DNA of 60,959 nt, from the IMG/VR virus record IMGVR_UViG_3300021960_000075, positions 1 through 60,959 of that record; one strand, written 5' to 3'. Of this stretch, positions 1,862 to 51,797 are shown in pieces. How positions within the stretch are numbered: the first letter of the stretch is position 1; every line of letters starts with the position of its first letter. The notes below the pieces were generated by a model, which did no database searches, was not told the origin of the DNA, and was given only the letters and a program-made list of their open reading frames with translations. A program made the translations under genes and the position numbers. This DNA comes from a virus.

Positions 1862-2595
1862 GCAAAGCTTATAAACAGGCTTTTATTGATAAGTACTATG
1901 AAAAATCAGCAGAACCTTTAGCAGACACTATGGGTTTTTACTGGGCTATGAGAGCTAGAGACTTTATACCAGTAATAGCAAAAACTTTTAAAAGTTATTT
2001 GTGGATGTTGCAAGAGCCTACTGAAAGTGGAGAATTTTTAAATTCTAAGAAAGACACTAGTGTAACTTGTTTTCAAGATTTTCAAGAGTGGTTAGATGTT
2101 TGTTCTACTAAGTCAACTCTTGTAATGTATGAAAAGTTTCAAGCAAATAGAAAAGTTGACCCAATGACTACGAAGCAAATATTTTTTATGAATGCAAAAC
2201 TTCTCGGTGGAACTGAAAATTTTGATGCTTGGTCTGCAGAAAGAAAAAAAGCTTACATTAAAGATTCTCTTTGGAATTTTGAAGATGAGATGGAAGCTTT
2301 TGGAACTGCAGTAAAAGAATTTGCTGGGGTACTTTTACATAAATGTTTTTTTGAAAGGGATGAAGATGAACATAATCATCATATGGGTCTAGAACATATA
2401 GAACTGAATTGGGATTGGACAGTTCAAGAACTATGTGAACTAATCGATGACTTTGTAAAAGTTAACGAAGGTCTTCCAACTAGGAATGAAGAAGCAGGTC
2501 CTCATTCTGAAGAAAGTTTAGATATTATTACTGGAGCTATAGCTTCTGAAAATTTTTTGGACTTTGTAGTTGATTATATTTTAAAGTCTAAGTAA
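1858..2595 (+). CDS. hypothetical protein, 245 aa
   Basis: The ATG at 1858 has a strong GGAGGAAG just upstream and overlaps the stop of the zinc-ribbon gene. An upstream in-frame start at 1768 would run through that gene and is rejected. The protein is mostly helical and aromatic-rich, with a conserved-looking FYWAMRARDFIPV segment near residue 30 and an acidic C-terminus. The family is not recognised. It is the last gene before the structured RNA region. Confidence 0.6.
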   Translation: MSKAYKQAFIDKYYEKSAEPLADTMGFYWAMRARDFIPVIAKTFKSYLWMLQEPTESGEFLNSKKDTSVTCFQDFQEWLDVCSTKSTLVMYEKFQANRKVDPMTTKQIFFMNAKLLGGTENFDAWSAERKKAYIKDSLWNFEDEMEAFGTAVKEFAGVLLHKCFFERDEDEHNHHMGLEHIELNWDWTVQELCELIDDFVKVNEGLPTRNEEAGPHSEESLDIITGAIASENFLDFVVDYILKSK

Positions 2596-2598
2596 AAT
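2570..2598 (+). promoter_or_regulatory. promoter for the structured RNA
   Basis: TTGATT at 2570-2575, a 17-base spacer and TAAAAT at 2593-2598. It overlaps the end of the preceding gene. The expected start near 2604 coincides with the first hairpin of the RNA. Confidence 0.45.
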
Positions 2599-2602
2599 AA
2601 AT

Positions 2603-2980
2603 TTACTGCGAATGGACACCGCAGTAACAGGAATAAGTCCAAAGAAAGTAGAGTCTTATAAGATAATACTGGAGGGGACAGACATAGTCTTTCATTACAG
2701 TTGCGGGACAGTGTTGGGGGTTCAAATCCCCCTTATTCCACGAAAAGGTAGAACGGAAATTATATAGCTAAAAGTTGTGTGTTGGTAAGTAATAAAGTTC
2801 TACCAAATTTTACGCTCTTCTTAGGAAAGTCCTAGGTCGTATAGATTATCAACTAGTTAACTTACACACAGCGTAAACGATGAGTAAATGAGAGGGTATA
2901 ATTAAATAGTCGGCAGTAGTCTCGCAAGAGATTACAAATTGTCCGATACCCTCCCATCGTCGACTCTCTTCGGAGAGTCG
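2603..2980 (+). ncRNA. large structured RNA with tRNA-like element, about 380 nt
   Basis: There is no gene from 2596 to 3062. The stretch instead holds a dense series of matched helices: 2603-2610/2620-2627; an acceptor-like stem GGAATAA 2630-2636/TTATTCC 2733-2739; a perfect T-arm 2716-2732 (GGGGG-TTCAAAT-CCCCC); 2747-2754/2797-2804; TTTACGCT 2809-2816/AGCGTAAA 2870-2877; hairpin 2820-2836; ACGATG 2877-2882/CATCGT 2955-2960; GAGGGTAT 2892-2899/ATACCCTC 2946-2953 enclosing a GCAA-capped hairpin 2917-2934; and a final 8-bp hairpin with TTCG loop at 2961-2980. GTAAGT 2785-2790 can pair with ACTTAC 2860-2865 as a pseudoknot. It is not a normal tRNA (111 nt, no clear anticodon arm, CGA instead of CCA), and I cannot fit tmRNA, RNase P or a group I intron. 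Confidence 0.7.
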
Positions 2981-3005
2981 TATCCAAAATAATTTTTAAA
3001 TTGAT

Positions 3006-3034
3006 TTGCATTATTTTTCATTATGTGGTATAAT
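3006..3034 (+). promoter_or_regulatory. promoter for genes at 3063 and 3311
   Basis: TTGCAT at 3006-3011, 17-base spacer, TATAAT at 3029-3034 preceded by TATGTGG. It fits the phage-wide promoter pattern. Confidence 0.75.
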
Positions 3035-3062
3035 AGATTATTAACCAAACGAAAGGATTAAA

Positions 3063-3311
3063 ATGAATACAACATTCATTTATGAAATTATAAAAATGAC
3101 TAGAGGATTAGAAAAGCATCCTTATCACGATTTAGAAGTGGTAGGTGTTGATTCTATAGAATTAAATACTTATGGATTTAATAATCCTGTAGAAATATTT
3201 TCTGAATGGGCTAGCAAAGCTCAGAAGGAATATTCTAAATTACATAAAACAGATGCTAGAGATAGTTACTTCTTTAGGTATCCTGTTATTGCAACAACGG
3301 AGGAGGAATAA
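3063..3311 (+). CDS. hypothetical protein, 82 aa
   Basis: ATG at 3063 with GAAAGGA upstream. The family is not recognised. It is a small acidic protein with a helical middle (FSEWASKAQKEYSK) and an RYPVIATT segment near the end. Its stop overlaps the start of the next gene (TAATG), so the two are a coupled pair. Confidence 0.55.
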   Translation: MNTTFIYEIIKMTRGLEKHPYHDLEVVGVDSIELNTYGFNNPVEIFSEWASKAQKEYSKLHKTDARDSYFFRYPVIATTEEE

Positions 3312-5674: not shown

Positions 5675-6934
5675 ATGGGAAGTCGAGACTATTTAGAGAG
5701 TAACGCCGAAGAGCAAAAACAAATTGTAGAAATAAAATTTCCCGATTTACATCCTGCACAACAAGAAGTTAAAGATTCTCCTGCACGTTGGAAAATACTA
5801 TGTGCTGGTAGAAGATTTGGTAAATCAAGACTTGGTGTTCAGTTATGTATGCAAAAAGCTCTAGATGGCGGTCGTGTTTGGTGGGTAGCACCTACTTTTG
5901 CTATCGCTCGTGTTGGTTGGCGTGATGTTGTAGCCGCAGCTCAAAGTTTTCCTAAATCAGTAGGAGTTGAAGTAAAAGTCGGCGATATGACTGTAAATTT
6001 TCCTAATGGTGGTTCTATTGCTGTTAAATCTGCTGATAACCCTCAAAGATTAAGAGGTGAAGGTTTACATTTCTTGGTTATGGATGAAGCTGCATTCGTT
6101 AGAGAAGAAACTTGGACAGAAGTACTTCGACCTACCTTAACTGAAAATAAAGGTTCTGCATTATTTATATCTACCCCAATTGGAATGGATAATTGGTTTT
6201 ATAAGCTATGGGAAAGAGCTTTAGTCGCAGATGATTGGGCTAGATTTCAATTTCCTACTACTGCAAATCCTATGATTGACCCAGCAGAAGTAGAATCAGC
6301 AAGACTAGACTTAGGAGAATTAGTATTTGCTCAAGAGTATCTTGCTGAATTTATTTCTGAAGGTGCTCAAATCTTCAAACCTACTTGGTTTAATTACTAC
6401 AAAGAAGGCGTTGGAAAAGTTATAGCTGATGGAAAAACTTACGATTTGAATGATTTAGTTAAGTTTGCAACAGTTGACTTAGCCGTTTCTATGAGAGAAT
6501 CAGCTGACTACACAGTTATTGGTGTGTTTGGACATCACATTGAAGATGACAAATTATTTATGTTGGATATGTTTAGAGACAGAATAGAAGCACCTGATAT
6601 TATTCCACAAATTAAAAGAATGGTAGGAATACATAATCTCGAATGGGTTGGAATTGAGCGAGCTGGTTATCAGTTAGCACTAGTACAGTTTGCAAGGAGA
6701 GAAGGTCTGAAAATCAAAGAATTAAGAGCTGACAAAGACAAGCGTTCACGGGCACTACCTTTATCTGCTAAGATGGAGAGAGGACAAGTATACTTTCCTA
6801 CAGACGTAGACTGGGTTGCAGACACAGAGCGTGAGCTTTTGACTTTCCCAGTAGGTGAGCACGACGACATCGTCGATGTTCTAGCGTATGCTTGTTTAAG
6901 TAGTGCTAGAAAGAGAAAATGGGAAGCTTATTAA
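5675..6934 (+). CDS. terL: terminase large subunit
   Basis: Packages DNA into the prohead using ATPase and nuclease activities. The N-terminal ATPase has Walker A AGRRFGKS (residues 44-51) and Walker B LVMDEAA (134-140) with the catalytic Glu. A C-terminal RNase-H-like nuclease follows, with ATVDLA (Asp about 268), VGIERAG and GEHDDIVDVLAYA, which give the metal-binding acidic residues. At 419 aa it is a normal-length TerL. It is the first gene of the head operon, directly abutting the portal. No obvious small terminase precedes it. Confidence 0.93.
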   Translation: MGSRDYLESNAEEQKQIVEIKFPDLHPAQQEVKDSPARWKILCAGRRFGKSRLGVQLCMQKALDGGRVWWVAPTFAIARVGWRDVVAAAQSFPKSVGVEVKVGDMTVNFPNGGSIAVKSADNPQRLRGEGLHFLVMDEAAFVREETWTEVLRPTLTENKGSALFISTPIGMDNWFYKLWERALVADDWARFQFPTTANPMIDPAEVESARLDLGELVFAQEYLAEFISEGAQIFKPTWFNYYKEGVGKVIADGKTYDLNDLVKFATVDLAVSMRESADYTVIGVFGHHIEDDKLFMLDMFRDRIEAPDIIPQIKRMVGIHNLEWVGIERAGYQLALVQFARREGLKIKELRADKDKRSRALPLSAKMERGQVYFPTDVDWVADTERELLTFPVGEHDDIVDVLAYACLSSARKRKWEAY

Positions 6935-10884: not shown

Positions 10885-12093
10885 ATGGCAAATTATAAAG
10901 AAGAAATTTCCAAGGTTAGAGCTCAGTTGAAAGAAGCTTTTGACTCTCAAGTAGATGGTAAATATACACCTGAAGCTAAAGAGAAAATCAAAGGTTTAAA
11001 TACTGAATTAGCAGGACTTATCGATAGCCAAAACTTAGAGAATTCAAAGTCTAAGAATGAAAAAGCTATGGAACAAGAAGTCTATGCATCTGAAACATCA
11101 CAAGCTGGACCAAAATCTGTTGGTCAAATGTTTGTTGAATCTGACGCCTACAAAGGCTACAGAGACAATGGTGTTAAAGGTGTAGATTCTGAAGTAGCTT
11201 TTAAAGCAACTTTAGGTGCTGGAACAACTGAACAATTTCCACCGGAAGTTCTAAGACAACCGGGAATCTTAGAGTACGCTCTTAGAGACCCAGACTCTGT
11301 CATTGGGCTTTTTGACCAAATTGATACAAACCAAAACTCATTTGCATATATGGAAGAAACAACCTTCACTAACGCTGCTGCAGAGCAAGCAGAAGAGGCA
11401 ACAACTGCTGAAGCTACATTAGACTTCACAGAACAAACTGCACCAATTAGAAAAGTTGGTGTCTTCTTGCCTGTTACTGAAGAACTTCTTGCTGATGTAT
11501 CTGGAATTCAAGGTTATGTCAATTCAAGATTAGCTGCAATGATGAAACTACGTTTGGACAGTCAATTACTTTCCGGAAACGGAACTGCACCAAACTTAGA
11601 AGGCGTATTAACAAAATCAGGAATCAATGCATTCGACTATACTGGCGGCCCTTATGGTGGCGAGTTAGGAAAAATTGGTCAAATCTATCAAGCAATCACT
11701 GAAATCAGAAAAGATGCTTTCGTAGAACCTGATGCAATTGTTATGCACCCATCAGACTGGTATGACATCGTTACATCCGTAACTGACATTACAACAAGTG
11801 GTTCTAAGAACCCATTGTTCGTAGTTGCAGGTGGATTCGGTGCTGATGCTGCTCCAAGAATTTGGGGACTCCCAGTCGTAGCTTCTACTGCAATTTCCGC
11901 AGGTACTGTACTTGTTGGTAAATTCGGTGGTGGCGAAGCTGCACACGTTGTAATGAGACAAGGTGTTGACTTAGCTGTATCTGACTCTCATAGTGACTTT
12001 TTCCTTAAAGGAAAATTAGCTATCAGAGCAACAATGAGACTTGGTCTTGTTGTTTACAGACAAGCTGCATTCTGTAAGATTACAAATATGTAA
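10885..12093 (+). CDS. major capsid protein, HK97 fold
   Basis: At 402 aa this is the usual size. The first ~60 residues form a charged helical delta-like domain (EEISKVRAQLKEAF) that serves as scaffold and is normally removed by the protease. The body has HK97-fold marks: a FAYMEET strand followed by an acidic linker, KVGVFLPVTEELLAD, the long spine helix with LDSQLLSGNG, AIVMHPSDWYDI, and a C-terminal FLKGKLAIRATMRLGLVV. The start has GGAGATAAAA upstream. A terminator follows, so this gene can be expressed above its neighbours. Confidence 0.92.
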   Translation: MANYKEEISKVRAQLKEAFDSQVDGKYTPEAKEKIKGLNTELAGLIDSQNLENSKSKNEKAMEQEVYASETSQAGPKSVGQMFVESDAYKGYRDNGVKGVDSEVAFKATLGAGTTEQFPPEVLRQPGILEYALRDPDSVIGLFDQIDTNQNSFAYMEETTFTNAAAEQAEEATTAEATLDFTEQTAPIRKVGVFLPVTEELLADVSGIQGYVNSRLAAMMKLRLDSQLLSGNGTAPNLEGVLTKSGINAFDYTGGPYGGELGKIGQIYQAITEIRKDAFVEPDAIVMHPSDWYDIVTSVTDITTSGSKNPLFVVAGGFGADAAPRIWGLPVVASTAISAGTVLVGKFGGGEAAHVVMRQGVDLAVSDSHSDFFLKGKLAIRATMRLGLVVYRQAAFCKITNM

Positions 12094-12096
12094 TTA

Positions 12097-12151
12097 AGTT
12101 CATTTATGTGGGGTAGGTAACTGCCCCACATAGAACTAAAAAAATTTTTTT
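12097..12151 (+). terminator. terminator after the major capsid gene
   Basis: AGTTC (12097-12101) and ATGTGGGG (12106-12113) pair with CCCCACAT (12124-12131) and GAACT (12133-12137), followed by A7T7. It likely ends part of the transcripts after the capsid gene. Confidence 0.75.
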
Positions 12152-13312: not shown

Positions 13313-13551
13313 TGGCTAGATACGACTACAAATGTTCCAAATGTGAACATATATTTGAAGTTCAACATTCTATTAATGAAGACCCAAAGGTAAAATGTGA
13401 AAAATGTAAAGCAATATCTATTAGACAAATTAGCGGTAGGGTTAATTTATATGGAACTGTTGGTATTGATTGGAATACTGACCCTAGCAAAGTTTCTCAA
13501 TCTATGAGAGACAAAGCTAAGGCAGCATCCAAACGTAAAGTTCAATTTTAA
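13312..13551 (+). CDS. FmdB-type zinc-ribbon protein, 79 aa
   Basis: The N-terminal half matches the FmdB putative-regulator zinc ribbon: M-A-R-Y-D-Y-K-C-S-K-C with a second CEKC about 20 residues later, followed by I-R-Q-I-S-G. Such small ribbons are common in head modules of actinophages and other phages, where their role is unknown. The C-terminus is basic. Its end overlaps the convergent gene by 4 bases. Confidence 0.75.
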   Translation: MARYDYKCSKCEHIFEVQHSINEDPKVKCEKCKAISIRQISGRVNLYGTVGIDWNTDPSKVSQSMRDKAKAASKRKVQF

Positions 13552-13835
13552 GGATTAAAGTAACCTAAAATCCCGTAACCACAAGTTCCTGCTTCAATAC
13601 CTGCAACTGTGCAGTCTTCAGGAATAATACTGTCATCGTGTTCATCGACTATTTCTCCGTTATACCAAAATATAACATCTGTAAATACTTCTCTGTGAAC
13701 ACAATTAGCAGGTGGTGTTGTTGGGTCTAAATCTTCACAGTAAATTTCTGTGTAGTTATCCCAATAGTAATTAGGCATAGAGCCAACATTGTTACCCCCA
13801 CCTAAAATCATTAATGCTACAACAAAGTGAAACAT
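13548..13835 (-). CDS. secreted or membrane-anchored small protein, 95 aa
   Basis: Last gene of a leftward cassette, convergent with the FmdB-like gene. The first 15 residues (MFHFVVALMILGGGN) form a signal-like hydrophobic stretch. The rest is acidic with four Cys (CEDL, CVHR, CTVA, CGYG), compatible with disulfides outside the cytoplasm. It starts at a TAATG overlap. Not recognised; it may act in lysis or exclusion. Confidence 0.5.
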   Translation of the reverse strand: MFHFVVALMILGGGNNVGSMPNYYWDNYTEIYCEDLDPTTPPANCVHREVFTDVIFWYNGEIVDEHDDSIIPEDCTVAGIEAGTCGYGILGYFNP

Positions 13836-14017
13836 TAGTATCCTTTCTCTCGTAATTTTGCTTGGTACTCAGGGTTACAGTTAGCACAAGTATCTATATC
13901 CCACATATCTTCTTCTGTCTGAAATGTTTCCATAAATCTTCCACCGCACATACCGCAGTCGAACCAAGACCACATTTCTTTTTTAGTCTTATATATCCTG
14001 TATAGGCTTCTTTCCAT
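13835..14017 (-). CDS. double CxxC zinc-ribbon protein, 60 aa
   Basis: MERSLYRIYK... contains CGMCGGRF and CANC, a compact zinc ribbon spaced by about 20 residues. The ATG at 14017 has AGAGGG upstream; the in-frame ATG at 14029 does not. It sits in the leftward operon between two small genes. Function unknown. Confidence 0.6.
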   Translation of the reverse strand: MERSLYRIYKTKKEMWSWFDCGMCGGRFMETFQTEEDMWDIDTCANCNPEYQAKLREKGY

Positions 14018-14174
14018 TTTCCCTCTCATCTAATTGTTGAATCTGTTCATCAGAAAGAAACCATTCAGGCGGAAAGCCTTCTCTTTTTTTCTCTCTTTCC
14101 CACTTCCAAAGTTCTAATTGATACATAGCTCTTTCAATAAATGTATCAAGTAGGTTATTTAACTTACTAAGCAT
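13989..14174 (-). CDS. small hypothetical protein, 61 aa
   Basis: Start MLSKLNNLL at 14174, with GAAAGGAG upstream. It overlaps the end of the lysis gene by 8 bases. Helical and charged (ERAMYQLELWKWEREKKRE), soluble. The longer frame from 14291 would run through the lysis gene and is not used. It could be a partner of the transglycosylase, but nothing in the sequence proves it. Confidence 0.5.
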   Translation of the reverse strand: MLSKLNNLLDTFIERAMYQLELWKWEREKKREGFPPEWFLSDEQIQQLDERENGKKPIQDI

Positions 14175-14724
14175 TTTGCTCCTTTCTGTATTTGGAAATA
14201 TATTTCCAGTCTTTTTCCCAACACCATTTACTAGAGTTCCAATCACGCCATTGTGAACGACCGTAAATATCTTGAGATAGTAAATATCCAAACATAATGT
14301 TGTAATATTCGCTGTGTTGAACTTTTACAAATTCCATATTATATAAATCAATTGGTGTATCTTTAGGATGTCCATCGTAAGGATAACCTCTATAAGTCAT
14401 TACCCAAGTATCCCATCTAGGTAAGTCATACTCTTCTGCAATCCAATTCCAAGTCCAACTCACAAATTGAAATAAACCGGAGTCATTATTGCCTTCAGCA
14501 GTTCTTACTGCATCAGTATTACCTCTTGATTCACACCATATAACTTTTACTGCAGTAGATAGTTGCTTAGGGTCATCAAAGAAATATATTAAATGGTCAG
14601 CGTGTTCTCTTACATCACGAGATATAATAGAATCACACCATTTGTATTCTTCTAGATAATTTTGAGTTAGCAAAGCCTTTTGGGGTAAAGCTGTCGCTAG
14701 GAATATCAAACATTCAGCTATCAT
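14167..14724 (-). CDS. secreted lytic transglycosylase / lysozyme-like protein, 185 aa
   Basis: Probably cleaves peptidoglycan glycan strands. After a short hydrophobic N-terminus (AECLIFLATALPQ) the core shows VIWCESRGN with the likely catalytic Glu65, followed by NNDSGLFQFVSWTWNW (SGLFQF at 82-87). This E-S-R...G-L-F-Q pattern is typical of SLT and Rpf-like lysozyme-fold domains. It has its own promoter and AAAAGGA site. It is unusual to find this on the opposite strand in the middle of a head module. Confidence 0.7.
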   Translation of the reverse strand: MIAECLIFLATALPQKALLTQNYLEEYKWCDSIISRDVREHADHLIYFFDDPKQLSTAVKVIWCESRGNTDAVRTAEGNNDSGLFQFVSWTWNWIAEEYDLPRWDTWVMTYRGYPYDGHPKDTPIDLYNMEFVKVQHSEYYNIMFGYLLSQDIYGRSQWRDWNSSKWCWEKDWKYISKYRKEQNA

Positions 14725-51733: not shown

Positions 51734-51749
51734 TATAATCGGTTATAAT
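51734..51749 (+). promoter_or_regulatory. tandem -10 elements before a 5' hairpin
   Basis: TATAAT at 51734-51739 and again at 51744-51749. A transcript would begin almost at the foot of the hairpin at 51760, so the hairpin becomes the 5' end or an attenuator for the gene at 51798. Confidence 0.4.
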
Positions 51750-51759
51750 AGATAGAGAT

Positions 51760-51787
51760 GGTCGGGGAAACCCGACCTTTTCTATTT
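51760..51787 (+). terminator. rho-independent terminator with GAAA loop
   Basis: GGTCGGG (51760-51766), GAAA, CCCGACC (51771-51777), then TTTTCTATTT. It ends the endolysin operon. Confidence 0.85.
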
Positions 51788-51797
51788 AGGAGACAAA

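Follow-up and report, generated by a model that had tools for sequence, protein, structure and literature searches.

Few classes of large structured RNA are known from phages, and the function of the two best studied, GOLLD and ROOL, is open. In GOLLD, the 3' region is universally conserved, the 5' region is less conserved, and tRNAs sometimes lie in the linker; ROOL is a phage-encoded ornate RNA that has no known protein partner and is often found near tRNA islands (PMC12286853).

Here, we describe an RNA of about 380 bases (positions 2603-2990) from an IMG/VR record of 60,959 bases. This whole stretch is called the window; coordinates refer to it unless another locus is named, and all parts of the RNA, its neighbour genes p1 to p3 and both promoter-like sites are on the plus strand. 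Comparison with its homologs shows it to be a real structured non-coding RNA, carried by aquatic phages of one uncultured family.

In layout, GOLLD comes nearest to it: both RNAs are phage-encoded, combine a conserved 3' part with a variable 5' part and contain tRNA or tRNA-like elements, an analogy of layout rather than homology. Unlike GOLLD, which often exceeds 800 nt and occurs in phages and prophages, the RNA described here is about half that size and belongs to one uncultured phage family, and its tRNA-like elements, unlike the tRNAs of GOLLD, are not tRNAs according to ARAGORN or Rfam. The GOLLD covariance model finds nothing at its gathering score, whether in the window or at nine homologous loci, and nothing at E<=10 in 2500-3100. 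With ROOL, the RNA shares its phage origin, its ornate structure and the lack of a known protein partner, but it is shorter (ROOL env-120 has 659 nt) and has its tRNA-like modules inside; the ROOL model of Rfam is likewise not matched by the window or the nine loci.

The preliminary description, made from the window alone, had judged that the RNA does not look like a cloverleaf tRNA, a tmRNA, an RNase P RNA or a group I intron, and had proposed an Rfam search. That search agrees: no family reaches threshold in the window or in the nine homologous loci (the RNase P RNA and group I intron models included), nothing credible appears at E<=10 for 2500-3100, and ARAGORN calls no tRNA or tmRNA in the window or the homologs. 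One stretch, AGGAAAGUCC, resembles P4 of RNase P RNA, but the loop and stem of its hairpin change in homologs, and the assignment was dropped. No description of the RNA was found in the literature searched (open-licence papers). In our view it constitutes a new family, to be counted as a variant among the large structured RNAs of phages and not as a member of GOLLD, ROOL, tRNA or tmRNA. This comes close to the earlier suggestion of a new class akin to GOLLD and ROOL: neither a significant Rfam hit nor a lack of compensatory changes was found, and the parallel with the GOLLD layout is closer than proposed.

Locus and distribution

The neighbour genes (TerL, portal, S78 head protease and HK97-type capsid) identify the source as a tailed phage. 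Upstream of the RNA are two conserved genes, and downstream of it is the terminase gene, TerL starting at 5675. The first of the two, p1 (942-1700), encodes a conserved protein of unknown function for which Pfam and PHROG give no family; Cys and His residues after its helical part are conserved. The second, p2 (1858-2595), is immediately upstream of the RNA and encodes a fast-evolving protein predicted to be helical (pLDDT 86). Fold searches with p1 and p2 gave no significant match, and the idea that p1 is a helicase loader was set aside, the resemblance being weak and the lambda P fold match (E 2.8) not supporting it. By its position only, p2 is a candidate partner of the RNA. The RNA had been placed among early genes; p1 and p2, being of unknown function, lend that timing no support. 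On the other side lies p3 (3063-3311), which encodes a small conserved protein. Elsewhere in the window, strong ordinary terminator-like hairpins are seen in the late region (12080-12135 and 51735-51790), and minus-strand ORFs occur amid a plus-strand region at 13548-14724, where GC skew is locally reversed.

A TerL-based search and comparison yielded relatives in which the RNA occupies this same site. Three DNA patterns for different parts of the 3' domain and a fourth in a further element, module M, returned the same contigs plus chance matches; among the matches rejected were that of L095, apparently chance and without the rest of the RNA, and the chance matches of L086-L089 to the P5 pattern. 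A p1 profile recovers 37 loci, and the 3' domain is found at E < 1e-18 in 34 of these (33 of 36 newly fetched, plus L063). In the other three (L128, L130 and L132), p1 is 31-34% identical, and a gap of ~110 nt separates the gene in the position of p2 from TerL, directly before the TerL start codon. ATAGTCGGC and CCCTCCCATC are retained in this gap, as is a P5-like hairpin that is longer (CGCCTATCTC-TTCG-GAGATAGGTG), and the gap is probably a mini-homolog, with a model score that is weak by itself (15.3 bits, E 0.16). One 18-mer of the 3' domain has only five matches in 85,000 prokaryote genomes, all apparently chance, and cultured phages hold no relatives of the RNA or of p1. As far as sequence comparison reaches, the homologs all belong to one uncultured phage family and occupy a fixed genomic position.

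That position brings to mind the pRNA of phi29, likewise a phage RNA near packaging genes. An RNA serving terminase or portal in the same way would fit the finding that, wherever a contig has TerL, the RNA is at most a few kb upstream of it, and directly before it in the L128-type phages; a palindrome-rich stretch of the RNA (2849-2861) could support ring or dimer contacts. We consider such a packaging role very improbable, as proximity alone is weak evidence, other genes intervene in most members, no Rfam model match or sequence relation links the two RNAs, and phi29 differs in phage type and motor, the terminase here being an ordinary large one.

Folding and the near-invariant 3' domain

The minimum free energy (MFE) of 2598-2990 is -116.7 kcal/mol (z = -5.77; 0 of 100 dinucleotide shuffles were as stable), and the longest plus-strand ORF inside the RNA has 51 codons. 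Compared with other 390-nt stretches of the same phage, with correction for GC only, the RNA is in the top ~1% and not the most extreme; equally high energy scores occur in several other places in the window, terminators being present in some of them, so that MFE alone is insufficient as proof of an RNA. What is decisive, on our reading of the alignments, is the comparative evidence: compensatory changes among the homologs in the 3' domain, in module M and in the acceptor and T stems of the tRNA-like modules. Together with the z score, these changes, which the preliminary description had proposed to look for, bear out its view of an ornate structured RNA.

The 3' domain (2876-2985, ~110 nt) is near-invariant; its model, R1, scores 118.5 bits in the window and E 1e-19 to 1e-31 in the homologs. 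Its helices are P1 (GATGA/TCGTC), P2 (GAGGGTA/TACCCTC), P3 (TCGG/CCGA), P4 (GTAGTCTC-GCAA-GAGATTAC) and P5 (CGACTCTC-TTCG-GAGAGTCG, then TATCC), of which P4 and P5 covary. The GCAA (2924-2927) and TTCG (2969-2972) tetraloops had been noticed at the outset and are present. When 25 distinct 3' domains, the window included, are fitted to R1, 97.5% of cells pair. There are 82 double-change cells, compared with 25.6 +/- 4.2 in shuffles and 6-21 with slid partners, and the covariation score is 0.308, compared with 0.097 in shuffles and 0.014-0.059 for slid structures; this shuffle test is inflated by relatedness, and the alignment was made by fitting to the structure. Counted by pair or by pair type, double changes are no more frequent than in shuffles. 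The covariation comes from P4 (seven of its eight pairs) and one pair of P5. There is very little variation in P1-P3, and the support for them is conservation and folding only; since the search patterns fixed parts of these helices, their invariance is partly a matter of ascertainment. P4 does not depend on the structure fit: the hairpin of each homolog folds by itself to the same shape with a GNRA or cUUCGg loop, and the stem varies freely yet pairs in every homolog. As the 3' domain alone is universal, it is likely the functional core.

The extreme sequence conservation of P1-P3 and P5, the AT-rich flanks and the fixed place near p1/p2 and TerL would also suit a DNA element with hairpins, such as a replication origin, a pac or cos site or a recombination site. 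The helices speak against this: G-U pairs outnumber A-C mismatches by 29 to 3 in the cells of the 3' domain and by 17 to 5 in those of module M, GNRA and UUCG loops replace each other, and the plus strand folds better in 19 of 19 versions tested. The G-U excess and the better folding of one strand argue that the element acts as RNA, and we give the DNA alternative only a slight chance. Structure and strand are thereby established by comparison.

Exchangeable modules of the 5' part

By the same comparison the RNA is modular, joining the near-invariant 3' domain to a variable 5' part of exchangeable modules. Long forms combine the 3' domain with a tRNA-like slot, a domain D3 and module M or a variant of it; they comprise the window, L004, L013, L014/L018, L019, L008/L009, L010/L012, L032, L033, L043, L045, L065 and L074, together with L055, L056, L060, L061 and L052. 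In short forms (L021, L027, L063, L071 and L077), the 3' domain is accompanied by a GNRA hairpin and by GNGGGACAG in a hairpin or loop, while L040/L062 and L083 are shorter still or differ upstream. The natural minimal forms are about 190 nt long. The long forms have one or two tRNA-like modules; the short forms and L083 have none.

A promoter-like site, TTGATT-17-TAAAAT (2570-2598), overlaps the stop codon of p2 and has a predicted start at about 2605. As for the promoter with 17-bp spacing that had been claimed here, a -10-like TAAAAT or TATAAT is kept at this position in most long-form homologs, several of which have a recognisable -35 (TTGACT-17-TATAAT in L032/L033; TTGACT-17-TAAAAT in L043/L045/L065/L074). 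The match itself is within chance (26 found, 21.5 +/- 5.5 expected). In the MFE structure, a 5' hairpin follows (2602-2627) with GGACAC in its loop (2614-2619); by eye, L013, L018, L019 and L010 have an unrelated stem around the same motif in the same place.

The tRNA-like module (2630-2743) was delimited from the MFE structure and a comparison of 15 modules. The 7-bp acceptor stem (2630-2636/2733-2739) and the complete T-arm (2716-2732, loop TTCAAAT) are exactly as first reported; between them are a D-like arm (2637-2679) and an anticodon-like arm (2681-2715), and the tail is ACGA (2740-2743). Like a tRNA, the module has its acceptor stacked on a 5-bp T-stem, and in the MFE structure it forms a four-way junction like that of a cloverleaf, in which the D-like arm is enlarged. 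Unlike in tRNAs, the D and anticodon arms of these modules are enlarged or missing, no anticodon arm is recognisable as such, and the tail is NCUA or ACGA. Over the 15 modules, which represent several unrelated sequences, 177 of 180 acceptor and T-stem cells are paired; the stems were chosen by eye, and the figure measures consistency and is not an unbiased test. T-loops have 7 nt in most modules and 6 nt in L013 and in the first modules of L008 and L010. The motif GCGGGACAG (2703-2711; consensus GNGGGACAG), found by eye, recurs with small changes in most homologs, short forms included, and was not seen by eye in L004, L040/L062 and L083.

Across the homologs, tRNA-like elements of at least four kinds occupy the slot. 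Those of the window type have 80-132 nt, with a D-like arm of varying size; further types have 80-83 nt and 55 nt, and L052 has a 169-nt version of the 55-nt type. In the 55-nt element, the 5' acceptor strand contains the stop codon of p2 (GCAGTAA; L055:2478-2500 and relatives). Nearly every tRNA-like element is followed by N-CUA (ACGA in the window and L004) and then by module M.

In L008-L012, a second tRNA-like element stands in tandem (L008:2242-2319; L010:2244-2323). It resembles the tRNA-like domain of tmRNA, isolated from a message domain, in whose place it has a plain hairpin; it starts with GGGGGTGAATT or GGGCGTGAATGG and ends with ACGAGGG-loop-CCCTCCAC-TCC-ACTA. Its best phage matches are SsrA genes, at their 3' end, to which its own 3' end is nearly identical: Pelagibacter phage Mosig has a permuted tmRNA with which 27 of 28 nt agree (E 1e-3), and for the L010 element the matches are tmRNAs of Cellulophaga and gut phages. 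The Mosig tmRNA itself (MT647606.1, L133:635-973) has the tag GEDNFALAA according to ARAGORN. L008 and L010 thus document an isolated tmRNA-like tRNA domain without the message part.

G3-U70 and A73 form the alanine identity set, and both are present in the L008 and L010 elements. These elements reach 18.1 bits (E 2.7e-5) with the Rfam tmRNA model, and the window T-arm gives a weak match (12.3 bits, E 0.0075). Such traits would be expected of a degenerate or rearranged tmRNA, or of a decoy, whose tRNA-like part is charged or bound by SmpB/EF-Tu and disturbs ribosome rescue. We hold this to be quite unlikely for the RNA as a whole: both scores are below the gathering score of 47, ARAGORN makes no call, no tag frame is conserved across the homologs when the sequences are read, and the window module has A3-U70, G3-U70 being missing in most others (by eye, present in L004) and the module as such in the short forms. 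A permuted tmRNA is ruled out by the ordinary module order, with the 5' acceptor strand before the T-arm. A likeness between ACTAAATGTAGTG in module M and the ACTAAGCATGTAG stretch of tmRNA was seen by eye only and dropped.

Module M (2747-2804) consists of an outer helix (GGTAGAAC/GTTCTACC) and an inner hairpin, and the window has a divergent version. In an alignment of 15 homologs that leaves out the window row, it has 20 double-change cells, compared with 9.1 in shuffles, and a covariation score of 0.188, compared with 0.111. Domain D3 (2808-2877) has an outer helix (TTTTACGCT/AGCGTAAA) that stays complementary despite type-specific sequence (ACGCC/GGCGT, CCTCAC/GTGAGG, GCCCAC/GTGGGC and others); within it are a hairpin (2820-2836) followed by TCGTATAG, and the palindrome-rich stretch mentioned above. 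TCGTAT follows two hairpins, one in D3 (2820-2844) and one at P5 (2961-2985), possibly, from the repeat in sequence, a duplicated protein-binding motif. A pseudoknot proposed earlier (TGTGTGT 2776-2782/ACACACA 2864-2870) is complementary in the window, but the region differs in most homologs, which leaves it unsupported. As with two other long-range pairings, CAGUUG/CAACU and M4 loop UAGUG/tail CACUA, its partners are too invariant or inconsistent to judge.

Proposed action of the RNA

In most homologs, module M forms a 7-bp stem rich in GC, with up to eight T after it (GGCTCCCTTTTTTTT), as in an intrinsic terminator or attenuator in the middle of the RNA. This, and the probable mini-version directly before the TerL start codon in L128, L130 and L132, would agree with a cis-acting element in a longer transcript, regulating p3 and the packaging operon by way of readthrough or translation. 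The window has no good U-run after the stem, which moreover encloses ~70 structured bases, unlike usual terminators, and length and modules are too variable for a switch. In addition, a sigma70-type promoter (TTGCAT-17-TATAAT, 3006-3034) lies directly 3' of the RNA, with a TTGACA- or TTGCAT-like -35 and a TATAAT-like -10 at this site in most homologs; it likely drives p3, judging by its sequence, and being separate it indicates that the RNA is not the required leader of p3. A cis-acting role therefore appears unlikely to us, though less so than the packaging, tmRNA and DNA alternatives.

We favour, as probable, a folded RNA that acts in trans, with a 3' core that meets a fixed partner and tRNA-like modules that contribute processing or structure; its transcription, processing, trans action and partner are what we infer from the comparison. 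The promoter overlapping the p2 stop codon would start the RNA at ~2605, and the second promoter would start the p3 mRNA, the RNA probably being independent. The 3' domain would bind a protein, of the phage or of its host, or else a second copy of the RNA. Enzymes that handle tRNAs, in the simplest case RNase P and those that process 3' ends, might act on the tRNA-like modules and so form stable ends. RNase P and the 3' processing enzymes read the acceptor/T stack, the T-loop and the N-C-N-A tail, and the 12-bp stack, T-loop and N-C-N-A tail of these modules resemble minimal RNase P substrates. As these features are kept, processing or stabilisation is the simplest use; the NCUA or ACGA tail, in place of NCCA, weakens the idea of RNase P and CCA. 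A structural use, with the modules as rigid building blocks of an RNA particle like that of GOLLD, is equally compatible. Since the short forms and L083 have no tRNA-like modules, any role of these modules would be accessory.

More tentatively, as a possibility we rate well below the trans-acting reading itself, the invariant 3' core could come with a slot that docks modules shaped like the top half of a tRNA, some of them derived from tmRNA, and these could recruit or mislead the tRNA or ribosome-rescue machinery of the host. With its small size, natural minimal forms and exchangeable modules, the RNA offers a tractable system for asking why phages embed tRNAs or tRNA-like parts in large structured RNAs.
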